A stretch of 24,091 nucleotides of DNA from Candidatus Eiseniibacteriota bacterium (GTDB lineage Bacteria > JAFGKV01), in contig JALOPK010000011.1 in assembly GCA_025453925.1 (NCBI GenBank), positions 1 through 24,091 of the forward strand, in the 5' to 3' direction. Position numbers and translations under genes: made by a program. This document shows positions 3 through 16,486 of this stretch, in pieces. Each line of letters opens with the position of its first letter. Within the stretch, counting starts at the first letter, position 1. The notes beneath the pieces are model-generated. The model did no database searches and was not told the origin of the DNA. It saw nothing but the letters and a program-made list of their open reading frames with translations.

Positions 3-2021
3 GAAGTGACCAATGAGAGACTTGAACGGGCCATCGATCGCGCCAACGAACTGGCGGGGATGGCGGAGGAGGCCAGCAAAGCCAAAAGCGAGTTTCTCGC
101 CAACATGAGCCACGAAATCCGCACTCCCATGAATGGGGTGATCGGCATGGCGGGGGTGCTGCTGGACACACACCTCACCCCCGAGCAGAGAGAGTATGCG
201 GAGATCGTACGATCCAGCGGCGAGAGCCTGCTCGCCATCATCAATGACGTTCTTGACTTCTCCAAGATCGAGGCCGGGCGGATGGACCTCGAGATGCTGG
301 ATTTCGAGATTCGCACCGTCATGGACGAGACCGCGACACTCTTGGCGGTCAATGCGCACGGGAAGGGAATAGAACTCATCAGCATGGTGGAACCCGATGT
401 GCCGCGCATGGTGCGGGGAGACGCGGGGCGTCTCCGGCAAGTCCTGCTCAACTTGGCGGGCAACGCGGTCAAGTTCACCGACCGGGGAGAAGTATCGATA
501 CACGCCGACGTGGATAGTGAGACCCCTTCCTCGGTGACACTTCGCTTCGAGGTCAAGGACACTGGCATCGGCATATCGTCGGATGCGTTGCCGCTGCTGT
601 TCCGCCCGTTCGGACAGGCCGACACCTCGACCACGCGACGGTTCGGAGGCACGGGCCTGGGGTTGTCCATCTCGAAACGACTCGCTGAGATGATGGGCGG
701 GAACATCGGCGTGACCAGCAATCCGGGGCAGGGTTCAGTGTTCTGGTTCACCGTCGTGTTCGAGAAGTCCACCGCGTCGCCCACCGCTGCTGAGGCTCCC
801 GCGGGCGACATCGCGGGTTCACGCATTCTCGTCGTGGATGACAATCAGACCAATCGGCGGCTCCTGGCCGTGCTTCTGACATCCTGGGGGTGCACGCATG
901 CCGAAGTGGCCGACGGCCCGGCAGCGCTCGACGCCCTGACGCAGGCTCAGACGGAGGGACAGCCGTTCACCGTGGCGCTCATCGACATGCAGATGCCGGG
1001 GATGGACGGGCTCGAGCTGGGGAGGCGAATCAAGGAAGATCCGCGGATCAGCGCCACGATGCTGATCATGCTCTCGTCGCTGGGGAAGATCACGCTGGAT
1101 GCGCGTGCGGTGGCCGGAGAGTTCTCCGCCTTCCTGATGAAGCCGATCCGGCAGGTGCAGTTACGCCAATGCCTTGCGATGGTGCGTGGCGTCCGCCCTG
1201 ACGGCCCTGTCGCGTCTGCTGCCGACAGCCACGCACCTGATCGACGCGGGGTCCGCATCTTGGTCGCCGAGGACAACGCCACCAGCCAGCGAGTGGCGTC
1301 GGCCATTTTGAAGAAGCTCGGCTGCCGTGTGGATGTCGCGGCCAGCGGCCAGGAGGCCCTCCGGGCATTGGAAGCGGCCCCGTATGACCTTGTGCTGATG
1401 GACTGCCAGATGCCGGAGATGGACGGGTATGAGGCAAGCCGGCTGATCCGTGATCCCTCATCGCGCGTTCGGAGGCACGACATCCCCATCATCGCAATGA
1501 CCGCCTACGCCATGGAGAGCGACCGGCAGCGCTGCCTGCAGGCCGGGATGGACGATTACCTCGCCAAACCGGTCACCCCTGGCGCACTCCGTGCGGTCGT
1601 CGAGCGCTGGGCTGCCCGCGCCGAACGCGGGGCCCCCGCGGGCGTCCCGCCTCCGCCGAACAACCCCGCTCTCGTATTCGATAAGGCGGGTCTGATGGAA
1701 CGCACGATGGATGATGCGACGTTGGCGCGCGAACTGGCGGCCATGTTCCTGGATGACGCTCCCCGGCGGATCTCATCGCTGAGGGATGCACTGAATCGGT
1801 CCGACCTGGGCGCTGCGGCACGCATAGCGCACACCCTCAGGGGCGCGGCAGGCTCCGTGGGCGCCGCCTCGATCGTGGCCACCGCTACCCGAATCGAGCA
1901 TGCATGCACCGCCGGAGACGGCCGGCGGGCGGGCTCGCTGGTCGCAGCCGCGGAGGCGCAGCTCGGTGAGGTCATCACGGCCATGAGATCGGCAGGATTC
2001 TGGGGCGGGGAAGGAGCATGA
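3..2021 (+). CDS. Hybrid sensor histidine kinase (HisKA-HATPase-REC-REC-HPt), 5' truncated by window
   Basis: The frame is open to the left edge, and the first GTG (position 6) falls in a coiled-coil of the kind that follows sensor domains, so the sensor part is probably outside the window. Numbering from that GTG, the HisKA H-box [13 protein letters not shown] carries phospho-His 36. The HATPase has N-box Asn 153, DTGIG at 185-189 and GGTGLGL at 214-220. REC1 has acceptor Asp 327 in LIDMQMP and REC2 has Asp 466 in LMDCQMP. A C-terminal HPt domain carries His 609 in [10 protein letters not shown]. All catalytic residues of a BarA/ArcB-type multistep phosphorelay are present, so it should autophosphorylate and pass phosphate through REC to HPt. 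HPt would then phosphorylate a separate receiver. The REC-DnaA protein 168 bp downstream on the same strand is the nearest candidate partner by position, but that pairing is inferred. Confidence 0.93.
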
Positions 2022-2188: not shown

Positions 2189-4042
2189 GTGAGTACAGCC
2201 CGCATTCTCGTCGTCGATGATGACCCTCATATCGTGCGACTCCTGCGCAGCGTCCTCGAGCGCGAGCACTACGAGGTGCTGACGGCTGAAGACGGTGAAA
2301 AGGGGTGGTCCGCGGTGCAGGGTGAGCATCCCGAGGCGGTGATCACCGACGTGATGATGCCCAAACTCGATGGCTTCGAGCTGGTCAGGCGCCTCCGGTC
2401 GGATCCCGTGGTGGGCCACACCCCGCTCATGATCCTGAGCGGCAAAGTCGAAGAGGAAGACCAGATCAAGGGCCTGGAGCTTGGGGCCGACGACTACTTG
2501 TTGAAGCCCTTCAGCATCGAGCTGTTCCTGGCCCGTGTGCGGGCGCTGCTCCGACGGAGGGACCAGGTCCGCGCCAGGACCCAGCCCGGATCGGATGGCC
2601 CGTTCGCCTCCCCTGGGCTCGAGAGGCTCGCGCAGTACTCGTTTGACACCTTTGTGGTGGGCAAGGGGAACACCAAGGCCGTGGAGGCTGCCCGGTCGGT
2701 GGTTGAGCAGCCTGGCCGGCGGCACAACCCTCTGTTCCTGTATGGCGGACCCGGCCGCGGCAAGACGCATCTGATGTGTGCCGTGGCAAACGAGCTCTTC
2801 GCGCGAAACCCCGCTGCGCGCATCTTGTATCTCACGTCCGAGGTCTTCAGCCAACAGATCATCGATGCCTACGAACATCGCACGGTGGATCGGCTTCGGG
2901 CAGGGTATGTGGCATGCGATGCTCTCGTCATCGATGATATCCAGTTCCTTGCCGTATCGGCGAGTCTTCAGACGGTGGCCGCCGGCGTGTTCTCCGAGAT
3001 GTACCGCCTGCAGAAACAGATCGTCATCTCCGGCGACCGTCGCCCCGAGGAATTGTCGGCGCTCATAAAGGAGGTCAGCACTGGTCTTGCCGGCGGGCTT
3101 GTGATGAGCGTCGACGCCCCTGATGCCGCGCTCCGCGCCACCATCCTGAGAACAAAGGCCTTCCAGAAAGGCTGGCCGATTGCCTTCGAGTTGCTGGACT
3201 ACCTCGCCGCCGGTCTCGACAGCGACATCCGCACGTTGGAGGGTGCCGTCAAGAAACTCGTCGCGTTGCATACACTGCGCTCGGTCACCCTGGACCGGGC
3301 ATCGGTCGACAGGGTGATCCAGGCGGTTCGAACCGCGGATGCCCGCGCACCATCACCCGACGCGGCAGTTGCTCCTCCTGAACAGGTCGCGGAGCCGCAT
3401 GCCTTTGTCAAGGTGTTCACCAGAGGTGGCGATCTCGCCAGCACATGGGGAACTCCCGAGGAGATCGCCGCGATCGTGCCTCCGCCGAAAACCTCTCCCG
3501 TGATCGTTCTTGGCACATCTCCCGCGCAGGTCGTGGACACCATGGATGCCATCGCCGGAGTGAAAGGGCCCGTGTCGGTGATCCCCGAAGGCGACAGATG
3601 GGCGTGCCTGCTCCACCCGGAGACGCCGGAACCGGAGTGGGTGATTGTGGGAACCAACCGCTGGAATGCCGGAGACGATCTCTCCTGGGTCTTGGCGGGT
3701 GGGCAGCCGCCGATCTATGTGCTGGTGTTTGACAGCGCCGGATCCCGGATCGTCGATGCCCGACTTCTGGTCGCTTCCGTGCCGCGGGGCGTCGCCGCCG
3801 CGGTAGTAGTCTTGTTCGCGGGTGCGGCCAACTGCGCGGATCGCCTCGCCGGGGGAGTGCTCACAGGGAGCATGCGCCGCCTCTTCCGAGTGCCCGAGGA
3901 GATCCCCGTGATCGTGGGGACCGCGGTCTCTTCTCCGGCAGCGCGAACCTGGCTCAGATACGCGATCGAGGGGGGAGGTGAGCGGGCGGATTCACCCGTG
4001 CATGTCTCTGTCGAGGCGAGTGGCCAGGAAAGGTCAACGTAA
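2189..4042 (+). CDS. Receiver domain fused to a DnaA-type AAA+ ATPase, with unknown C-terminal domain
   Basis: 617 residues from a GTG preceded by GAGAGGAG at good spacing. Residues 1-125 are a CheY-like receiver: acidic pocket Asp10/Asp11, acceptor Asp54 in ITDVMMP, Ser84, Lys106. Residues about 148-385 match DnaA domain III closely: FDTFVVGKGN, NPLFLYGG, Walker A GGPGRGKT (186-193), Walker B LVIDDIQF (Asp249/Asp250), sensor I ISGDRRP, and sensor II in DIRTLEG (Arg348). DnaA domains I, II and IV (the HTH that reads DnaA boxes) are absent. The box VII arginine finger (SRF in DnaA) aligns with Gly299. Residues about 400-617 are an alpha/beta-looking region that I do not recognise. It sits between a hybrid kinase and a convergent kinase, about 12 kb from true dnaA. 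Possible roles are a phosphorylation-controlled DnaA partner, like Hda in architecture, or an unrelated AAA+ switch. Domain assignment is firm; function is inference. Confidence 0.92.
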   Translation: MSTARILVVDDDPHIVRLLRSVLEREHYEVLTAEDGEKGWSAVQGEHPEAVITDVMMPKLDGFELVRRLRSDPVVGHTPLMILSGKVEEEDQIKGLELGADDYLLKPFSIELFLARVRALLRRRDQVRARTQPGSDGPFASPGLERLAQYSFDTFVVGKGNTKAVEAARSVVEQPGRRHNPLFLYGGPGRGKTHLMCAVANELFARNPAARILYLTSEVFSQQIIDAYEHRTVDRLRAGYVACDALVIDDIQFLAVSASLQTVAAGVFSEMYRLQKQIVISGDRRPEELSALIKEVSTGLAGGLVMSVDAPDAALRATILRTKAFQKGWPIAFELLDYLAAGLDSDIRTLEGAVKKLVALHTLRSVTLDRASVDRVIQAVRTADARAPSPDAAVAPPEQVAEPHAFVKVFTRGGDLASTWGTPEEIAAIVPPPKTSPVIVLGTSPAQVVDTMDAIAGVKGPVSVIPEGDRWACLLHPETPEPEWVIVGTNRWNAGDDLSWVLAGGQPPIYVLVFDSAGSRIVDARLLVASVPRGVAAAVVVLFAGAANCADRLAGGVLTGSMRRLFRVPEEIPVIVGTAVSSPAARTWLRYAIEGGGERADSPVHVSVEASGQERST

Positions 4043-5183
4043 ACGTCGCGCCGTGCCCAGGGCCGGCGCTCGCGCAGGCCAACTGCATGGCGTGACGCTG
4101 ACTTATCAGCCTCCCTATCGCCAGGGACAGAGCCGTGCCAGAGCGGCGATGCAGCACATCGGGAGCGGCAAACGGTTCGAAGATGGACTCAACGGCGTCA
4201 GCGGCAAGCCCCAGGCCGGTGTCCGTCACCGTGAACACAAAGCCCCCGCCGTCGGTGGCCAGGAGGCGCACATCCAGCGAGCCGCCGGGCTGATTGTGTT
4301 TCACCGCATTGTCGAGCAAGGCTCTCACCAGAAACCGAAGGTGATCTCGATCCCCCTCGATGGGGAGTTCCGCCGCCGGATTCCACTGAACTGAGAGGCC
4401 CGCTTCGGCGATGCGGGGGCTAAGCCGGGCGACCTCATCTGCCACCAACGCGGCGAAGTTGATCGGAGCATGGTGCCCCACGTCGGCTCCCGACATGAGC
4501 CGAGAGTACAGCAGCGCCCGCTCCGAGAACTCGTGAATCCGCCGAAAGGACTGGAGAATCCCCTGCAGCAGATCGGCGATCTCCTCGCGGCTGAGCGAGC
4601 CGATCTCTTCCAGTGCCAGCTCGGCCAGGCCCATGCCGGCCAGCGGCGTGCGCAGCTCGTGGGCGATGAGGGTGAGGAAGTCCTCGCGCGTCCGGCCGAG
4701 TTTCTCCAACTCCCTGTTCGCCGCGACCAGTTCCTCTGTCCGCCGCCGCACCTCACCCTCCAGCCTGCGGGTGTAGTCCCGCGCCATCGCCTTGAATCGC
4801 CGGCGCTCGACGCAACGGCTCACGGCATGTTCAACCAAGACAAGGTCGAAAGGCTTGGCAATGAAGTCGGAAGCGCCGTGCCGAAGGGCGCTCACCGCGT
4901 CATCCATCTCGCCGAACCCGGTGATGAGGATAACCTCGACTTCCGGGTCGGCGTCGCGCAGGGCCTTGAGCAGATCGAGCCCGCCCATCTCCGGCATCCG
5001 GAGGTCCGAGATGACGACTCCCGGGGAGTGCTCGCGGAAGAGGCGCAGCCCTTCGGTTCCCGTGGCACCCTCGATCACGGTGGCGAAACGACGCCGCAGG
5101 AAGTGCGCAAGCAGGGCGCGGATCTGCGGCTCATCGTCGACCACCAGAATCAGGGTGGGCTCGATAACATCGGCAGTGGCCAT
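3954..5183 (-). CDS. REC-HisKA-HATPase protein (response regulator/histidine kinase)
   Basis: 409 residues. I chose the ATG whose upstream sequence is GGGAGGAATCCC, because the frame continues 62 codons further but those residues do not look like a receiver N-terminus. Residues 10-125 are a receiver with Asp60 in VISDLRMP and Lys110. A helical linker (about 125-165) leads to a HisKA H-box FLTLIAHELRTPLAG with His175. The HATPase has N-box Asn292 and DTGLG at 321-325. The G2 box reads SGTALSL rather than GTGLGL, a mild departure. No sensor or transmembrane segment is visible, so it is likely cytosolic and controlled through its own receiver, taking phosphate from another kinase or HPt protein. 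The last 22 residues after the HATPase fold are Pro/Arg-rich. They overlap the 3' end of the convergent REC-DnaA gene by 89 bp. Confidence 0.9.
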   Translation of the reverse strand: MATADVIEPTLILVVDDEPQIRALLAHFLRRRFATVIEGATGTEGLRLFREHSPGVVISDLRMPEMGGLDLLKALRDADPEVEVILITGFGEMDDAVSALRHGASDFIAKPFDLVLVEHAVSRCVERRRFKAMARDYTRRLEGEVRRRTEELVAANRELEKLGRTREDFLTLIAHELRTPLAGMGLAELALEEIGSLSREEIADLLQGILQSFRRIHEFSERALLYSRLMSGADVGHHAPINFAALVADEVARLSPRIAEAGLSVQWNPAAELPIEGDRDHLRFLVRALLDNAVKHNQPGGSLDVRLLATDGGGFVFTVTDTGLGLAADAVESIFEPFAAPDVLHRRSGTALSLAIGRLISQRHAMQLACASAGPGHGATFTLTFPGHSPRQRHARVNPPAHLPPRSRI

Positions 5184-5403
5184 GGGATTCCTCCCCGCGG
5201 GCTTCAGTGTCTCGGGTGCGGGTGCCGGGCGTACAGCTGTGACCAGAGTTACCTCGCCCGCGGTGCGCGTCAAGTTCTTGTGCCCCCCGAAGGGATGCGA
5301 CCCCGCGGGCTTGCCCGCGCCGGCGTCCTTTGTTACTTCTCTTCCCGGCATCCGGGGACAGGGCATCAAGACGCCCCCGTTGAGAGGATGGAGAGGTCAC
5401 GGT
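5184..5403. promoter_or_regulatory. Divergent intergenic region between REC-kinase and PAS genes
   Basis: This 220-bp spacer separates two divergently transcribed signalling genes and should hold both promoters. It contains a GC-rich inverted repeat, CGCGGGC-TT-GCCCGCG, at 5304-5319, which could be a hairpin or an operator. I see no convincing sigma70 -35/-10 pair on either strand. The Shine-Dalgarno sequences at its two ends (GGGAGGA for the minus gene, GAGAGG for the plus gene) support the chosen starts. Confidence 0.45.
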
Positions 5404-16226: not shown

Positions 16227-16246
16227 TGTGGACAACTTGTGGACAA
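16227..16246 (-). other. Pair of DnaA boxes (TTGTCCACA orientation)
   Basis: Two identical 9-mers TGTGGACAA at 16227-16235 and 16238-16246 (TTGTCCACA on the minus strand) have starts 11 bp apart, about one helical turn. TTGTCCACA is a well-known DnaA-box variant, especially in high-GC bacteria. Same orientation and helical phasing favour cooperative DnaA binding. Confidence 0.8.
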
Positions 16247-16317
16247 TCCCGATGCAGACGTGGCAACTTCATGGCGCCCCAAAGACTTCCTCCCATTGCT
16301 CCGCCATCGGGTCTTTA

Positions 16318-16361
16318 CGTGATCTTCACGATGACCGCCCCACTTGTGACATTGTCTCACA
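16318..16361. promoter_or_regulatory. Two GTGA/TCAC inverted repeats upstream of dnaA
   Basis: CGTGA-TCT-TCACG at 16318-16330 is a perfect 13-bp inverted repeat. TGTGA-N7-TCACA at 16345-16361 is a second with related half-sites. The second resembles a CRP/FNR-family site but with a 7-base rather than 6-base spacer. They lie between the DnaA box pair and the dnaA start, where a regulator of dnaA or of origin firing could bind. No regulator can be named from sequence. Confidence 0.4.
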
Positions 16362-16477
16362 TAGCCTTTCTCGAATGACCTCAACCTCTGTCTTAGGCAA
16401 ACTCGCTCAACTGCATGGCCTGCCGTGCATGCCGCCCCGCCGAGTTTGCCGCAGACGGATTCCCACGGGGGGGAACC

Positions 16478-16486
16478 TGTGGATAA
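16478..16486 (-). other. Perfect DnaA box overlapping the dnaA start codon
   Basis: TGTGGATAA on the plus strand is TTATCCACA on the minus strand, the exact consensus DnaA box. It overlaps the GTG that I take as the dnaA start (16479-16481). DnaA binding here could autoregulate dnaA transcription. Confidence 0.8.

Follow-up and report, generated by a model that had tools for sequence, protein, structure and literature searches.

The window, as we call the whole 24,091-nucleotide stretch analysed here, contains a gene in which a response-regulator receiver (REC) is fused to an AAA+ module of the DnaA domain III type and to a C-terminal domain whose model has an EngB/YsxC-type GTPase fold but whose sequence lacks the motifs for GTP binding (Table 1). 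We tentatively favour the view that the encoded protein is a response regulator with a repurposed DnaA-type output, a phospho-controlled and DNA-independent molecular switch whose likeliest partners would be HTH-less DnaA proteins of the pilus or cell surface.

The first two domains had been recognised in a first-pass annotation of this DNA, and both assignments are borne out. Pfam Response_reg matches residues 6–117 (E = 3.8e-29), and the receiver residues D10, D11, D54 and K106 are invariant across an alignment of 12 orthologues and paralogues (the four long copies from each of three genomes of the phylum); position 84 is Ser or Thr (Thr in one copy). Bac_DnaA matches residues 149–306 (E = 1.3e-43) and the NCBIfam DnaA model TIGR00362 spans residues 148–385 (E = 1.2e-67), such that the AAA+ module resembles DnaA domain III motif by motif and in fold. 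The full-length AlphaFold2 model has a mean pLDDT of 74.5 and a pTM of 0.42, and the arrangement of its domains is therefore not reliable. Its best matches in the PDB are structures of DnaA domain III (8btg and 8bv3; E ~1e-18, rmsd ~2 Å over ~230 residues), which rank above NtrX/NtrC-type AAA+ proteins and Hda, so that a structural comparison suggested in the same annotation comes out in favour of DnaA domain III. NtrC-type response regulators also place a receiver before an AAA+ ATPase, but the AAA+ module here is of the DnaA type, and the protein has neither a Sigma54_activat match in Pfam nor a Fis-type HTH. An NtrC-type identity is ruled out by the absence of that match together with the first rank of the DnaA structures.

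Table 1. Coordinates of the fusion gene, its domains and the neighbouring features in the window.
Feature	Position	Strand	Remarks
Hybrid histidine kinase, HATPase-REC-REC-HPt	6..2021	+	Upstream; truncated at the 5' end by the window; candidate phosphodonor
REC - DnaA domain III (AAA+) - pseudo-GTPase fusion	2189..4042	+	617 aa; GTG start
Receiver domain, residues 1-125	2189..2563	+	Pfam Response_reg; D10, D11, D54 (phospho-acceptor), S84 and K106 intact
DnaA domain III-type AAA+ module, residues 148-385	2630..3343	+	Profiles, motifs and structure match
Linker, about residues 386-405	3344..3403	+	Fast-evolving; low model confidence
Predicted C-terminal EngB/YsxC-like TRAFAC GTPase fold, residues ~406-595	3404..3973	+	Structure model; weak EngA profile matches
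REC-histidine kinase, convergent	3954..5369	-	Second possible partner; start codon uncertain
DnaA boxes	16227..16486		Mark the likely oriC side of dnaA
True dnaA	16425..17831	+	Bac_DnaA_C 7.8e-27; TIGR00362 8.7e-143; has the domain IV HTH and an intact arginine finger

A conserved third domain (residues ~406–595), overlooked in the first-pass annotation, has no match in Pfam. When modelled alone with AlphaFold2 from the 12-sequence alignment (pLDDT 81, pTM 0.81), it matches EngB/YsxC GTPases in Foldseek (3.3e-5) and superimposes on YsxC over 174 residues (VIA Z = 13.1, rmsd 3.7). Its sequence profile gives a weak match to EngA (E = 0.014), and hhalign against the GTPases of the same genome gives E = 4e-4 at a probability of 35%, which is weak alone. 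In the control alignments the domain showed no signal with either the receiver or the AAA+ module, while the AAA+ module aligned with the same GTPases over 33 columns, presumably at the P-loop. Since the profile–profile support is weak by itself, the assignment rests on the structure model. The P-loop Lys (GxxxxGK[ST]) is absent from the domain in all 12 copies, in which the DxxG (G3) and NKxD (G4) motifs are not recognisable by alignment, and we therefore refer to it as a pseudo-GTPase. It would thus share its fold with the EngB/YsxC GTPases but differs from them in lacking the G1, G3 and G4 motifs, in being fused to other domains and in having no ribosome-assembly context. Each of the three phylum genomes encodes exactly four proteins with this tail, which was found in 0 of 383 other genomes.

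The ATP site of the AAA+ module is kept, with Walker A (GGPGRGKTH), Walker B (DD249–250), sensor I (SDR/GDR) and the sensor II arginine (R348) all retained across the alignment. Nine of the 12 copies, the window copy (Gly) among them, have lost the Box VII arginine finger that corresponds to R285 of E. coli; the remaining three have an arginine at this position. In all 12, other residues have taken the place of the basic ones in the ssDNA-binding B-motif (K/R of GKERTQ). The initiator-specific region is partly retained and keeps a hydrophobic residue where E. coli has V211. In E. coli DnaA, R285 contacts the ATP of the neighbouring protomer, and V211 and R245 represent the H and B motifs, respectively (PMC12122000). 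DnaA domain I is absent from the window protein according to Pfam, which also finds no Bac_DnaA_C (domain IV HTH) match, although the window's own dnaA has one, and no DNA-binding domain; all 12 copies lack domains I and IV. Lacking domain I, domain IV, the finger and the basic B-motif, the protein is therefore not an initiator; it further differs from DnaA in carrying a receiver and a pseudo-GTPase and in belonging to a clade apart from the DnaA of its own genome. An ATPase for DNA or RNA transactions under receiver control, such as a DnaC/DnaI-like loader or an ssDNA-binding remodeller, would fit the DnaA-clade fold and the retained part of the initiator-specific region, but the uniform replacement of the B-motif basic residues and the lack of a DNA-binding domain make it highly unlikely.

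Hda and HdaA resemble the window protein in being DnaA-family AAA+ proteins without domain IV. The Hda model TIGR03420 scores 87 bits on the window protein (E = 1.3e-24), under its curated cut-off of 194.8, and, in contrast to Hda, the window protein carries a receiver and a tail. The arginine finger of Hda is required for the hydrolysis of DnaA-bound ATP (PMC10380432). Copies that have lost the finger would therefore not stimulate DnaA-ATP hydrolysis in the manner of Hda, and judged from their residues an Hda-like action is unlikely for most of the family.

Could the gene simply be a functionless, decaying duplicate of dnaA? The loss of the finger and of the DNA-binding parts would be expected of one, but this explanation is scarcely credible given four copies in each of three genomes and given the dN/dS values. 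Between the window gene and its congener these are 0.05, 0.08 and 0.15 for the three domains, and across four congener pairs they lie between 0.05 and 0.26 for every receiver, AAA+ module and tail with an estimable dS (one receiver has a saturated dS). The linker evolves far faster in the same comparison, and the tails of paralogues diverge faster than the core. On the basis of the low ratios, we conclude that all three domains are functional. Purifying selection on all three likewise rules out a chance open reading frame or a relic, and a binning artefact is ruled out by the presence of the gene and dnaA on one contig in two independent genomes.

The source genome encodes nine Bac_DnaA proteins, namely the true DnaA, four REC-DnaA-pseudoGTPase proteins, one short receiver-DnaA protein, one with a degenerate receiver and two MshEN-DnaA proteins. 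The search for REC plus Bac_DnaA architectures that had been proposed from the sequence thus yielded further fusions, with exactly four long copies, together with receiver-DnaA variants, in each of the three genomes that make up our sampling of the phylum (G000, G001 and G002). No receiver-DnaA fusion was found outside the phylum in ~770 genome searches (two samples, possibly overlapping, with the best 3–5 candidates scored per genome). The short form, which has no tail, lies directly 3' of a gene for a TPR protein in G002 (L149, 7285–9254) and has a homologue in G000 (L012, 8898–10817). In a further DnaA-like protein (L014, 1850–3322, with orthologues in L147 and L148) the receiver is degenerate and the tail does not resemble the pseudo-GTPase; the genes on either side of its own are conserved in all three genomes.

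The first-pass annotation placed the fusion near the replication origin and inferred that it could feed a signal directly into replication initiation. The location holds for the window copy: dnaA and its boxes lie in the window, the GC-skew minimum is near 18 kb, and the only other box-like sites are single-mismatch sites at 4925 and 18477. In the congener G001, both the window gene and the hybrid kinase upstream of it have syntenic counterparts (79% and 89% identity), again on the dnaA contig. For the family the description fails, since only one of the four paralogues, and that in two congeners only, lies ~13 kb from dnaA; the contigs of the other three hold no recognised replication genes, and the dnaA contig of G002 lacks a REC-DnaA gene, none of the four copies in that genome being near dnaA. 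A direct regulator of replication is conceivable, in which phosphorylated REC-DnaA would dock on the finger face of ATP-DnaA and cap or block the oligomer at oriC. The AAA+ module is genuinely of the DnaA type and retains its ATP site, a finger-less module could accept the finger of DnaA and so act as a filament cap, and the window copy is near dnaA in two congeners. Set against this are the distance of the other paralogues and of all four G002 copies from dnaA, the sub-threshold Hda score, which gives no Hda-type membership, and a sister group that sits in a pilus locus. Direct replication control is therefore possible but not favoured, and we consider it improbable. The claimed input to initiation is similarly opposed by the missing domains I and IV, the B-motif replacements and the nine lost fingers as well as by the pilus-locus relatives.

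Control of the DnaA-like module by phosphorylation, the other half of that claim, is plausible, given the intact acceptor site and the kinases that adjoin the family. A histidine kinase gene is adjacent to seven of the 12 long REC-DnaA genes, the window copy included. The G001 orthologue of the truncated upstream kinase is a 1270-aa PAS-HisKA-HATPase-REC-REC-Hpt protein encoded beside the same REC-DnaA gene, and in one paralogue group (C384) the kinase gene overlaps the REC-DnaA start codon in G000 and G001 and is a few bases off in G002. The remaining neighbours are mixed, with genes for peptidoglycan turnover, glycosyltransferases and surface proteins; none of the REC-DnaA genes in the three genomes lies within a pilus locus, and both points count against the reading that we favour. 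These surroundings could be read as a sign that each copy is a switch ATPase with targets of its own (in envelope synthesis, metabolism or polarity, for example), served by different kinases and reaching different partners through the divergent tails. The neighbourhoods do differ between paralogues and are partly conserved, as with the LD-carboxypeptidase, GH3 and DapF genes flanking the C384 group, and the faster divergence of the tails points the same way. The neighbourhoods may, however, reflect chance, conservation of several of them does not extend to G002, and the common AAA+ core suggests a shared mechanism or partner, so that we regard copy-specific targets as rather unlikely.

The relatives of the AAA+ module point towards the pilus. 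In a FastTree phylogeny of AAA+ domains, the receiver-DnaA proteins cluster together (support 0.99 for the long REC-DnaA-tail fusions and 0.92 for all receiver types), and finger-less MshEN-DnaA proteins are their sister group with moderate support (0.72), apart from the DnaA proteins of the same genomes. All three phylum genomes have a type IV pilus locus that holds MshEN-DnaA genes (G002:C14, L143 and L144; G001:C299, L142; G000:C183, L015). The locus is whole in G002, where they lie between the prepilin peptidase gene (PilD) and those for PilB, PilT, PilC, PilS, PilT2 and PilR, and where a 1993-aa MshEN-DnaA-coiled coil-DnaA protein with its arginine fingers kept is also encoded. The coiled-coil forms, MshEN-DnaA-coiled coil(-DnaA), of which this is the longest, have intact fingers. 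The MshEN parts of the MshEN-DnaA proteins contain two 24-residue motifs of the c-di-GMP type as defined previously (PMC5013675), partly degenerate. In having an MshEN input ahead of an ATPase and in their pilus-locus setting, these proteins resemble the MshE/PilB-type ATPases (MshEN-T2SSE), but their ATPase is a DnaA-type AAA+ module and not of the PilB/GspE type.

A phospho-controlled switch, the reading that we favour, is supported by the pattern of conservation, in which receiver and ATP-site residues are invariant while DNA-contact residues and, in the main, finger residues are lost. In such a mechanism the neighbouring histidine kinase would phosphorylate D54, and this would alter either the nucleotide state or the exposed faces of the AAA+ module. 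Without a finger to supply, most copies can only receive one; they would therefore make no ATPase filament of their own and would instead dock, from one side, on an AAA+ protein that bears a finger. Three of the 12 copies keep an arginine at that position, so that such one-sided docking cannot be general. The pseudo-GTPase tail would confer target specificity, and the likeliest partners would be, rather than the initiator, those HTH-less DnaA proteins that have fingers (MshEN-DnaA-coiled coil) and are part of the type IV pilus or cell-surface apparatus.

HTH-less DnaA-type proteins with intact fingers are also present in lineages beyond the phylum. Giants of 1790–2145 aa in which an N-terminal domain and TPRs precede a DnaA part without the HTH but with the arginine finger are encoded in G014 (L145, 9958–16356, minus strand), G162 (L162) and G301 (L152); by eye, they may have a CHC2-like zinc-binding N-terminus. 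G107 encodes a 701-aa tandem-DnaA protein (L201, 3863–7497), its gene lying two genes after that for a DUF4388 protein which also has an MshEN-like match, and HTH-less DnaA proteins of 600–730 aa with flanking domains occur in G118, G382, G210, G240 and G255. A stand-alone receiver gene comes directly after the HTH-less DnaA gene in G210 (L202, 8293–10682), G340 (L207) and G069 (L210, 6449–8150), so that these unrelated genomes have the two partners side by side but not fused. PilT is encoded two genes from HTH-less DnaA in G118 (L204) and G382 (L205, 5498–9154), and in G240 (L206) and G368 (L208) PilT, a histidine kinase and a receiver share the same 12-kb stretch among glycine-cleavage genes. 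Genes for glycine cleavage and for central and sugar metabolism are likewise present in the neighbourhoods of HTH-less DnaA in other lineages, which counts against the pilus reading. Taken together, these lineages offer suggestive, independent support for a link between HTH-less DnaA, receivers and the pilus motor.

The AAA+ module of DnaA is familiar from replication, in DnaA and Hda, and from related loaders. Neither receiver-DnaA nor MshEN-DnaA proteins are described in the open-access literature that we searched, and the best reading is that repurposed DnaA modules form a class so far largely unrecognised. More speculatively, DnaA-type AAA+ modules may have left replication to become a general class of signal-controlled switch or scaffold ATPases, of which the REC-DnaA-pseudoGTPase proteins would be phospho-controlled and mostly finger-less subunits that regulate such assemblies. 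It is conceivable, with similar reserve, that this wider class takes its inputs from receivers and from MshEN/c-di-GMP, has its outputs in type IV pili and surface machinery, and includes the giant MshEN-DnaA-coiled coil-DnaA protein. What would be new is the combination of phosphorelay and c-di-GMP inputs, absent DNA binding, four copies per genome and relatives in a pilus locus. A practical warning follows for annotation, in that proteins labelled 'DnaA' from PF00308 only may be wrongly named. The family also makes testable the question of whether a DnaA-type AAA+ switch or filament acts on protein machinery without DNA. In this cell, a replication engine seems to have been turned into a signalling switch which, if the reading is true, would add a new kind of output to those of response regulators and put the initiator ATPase to a new use.
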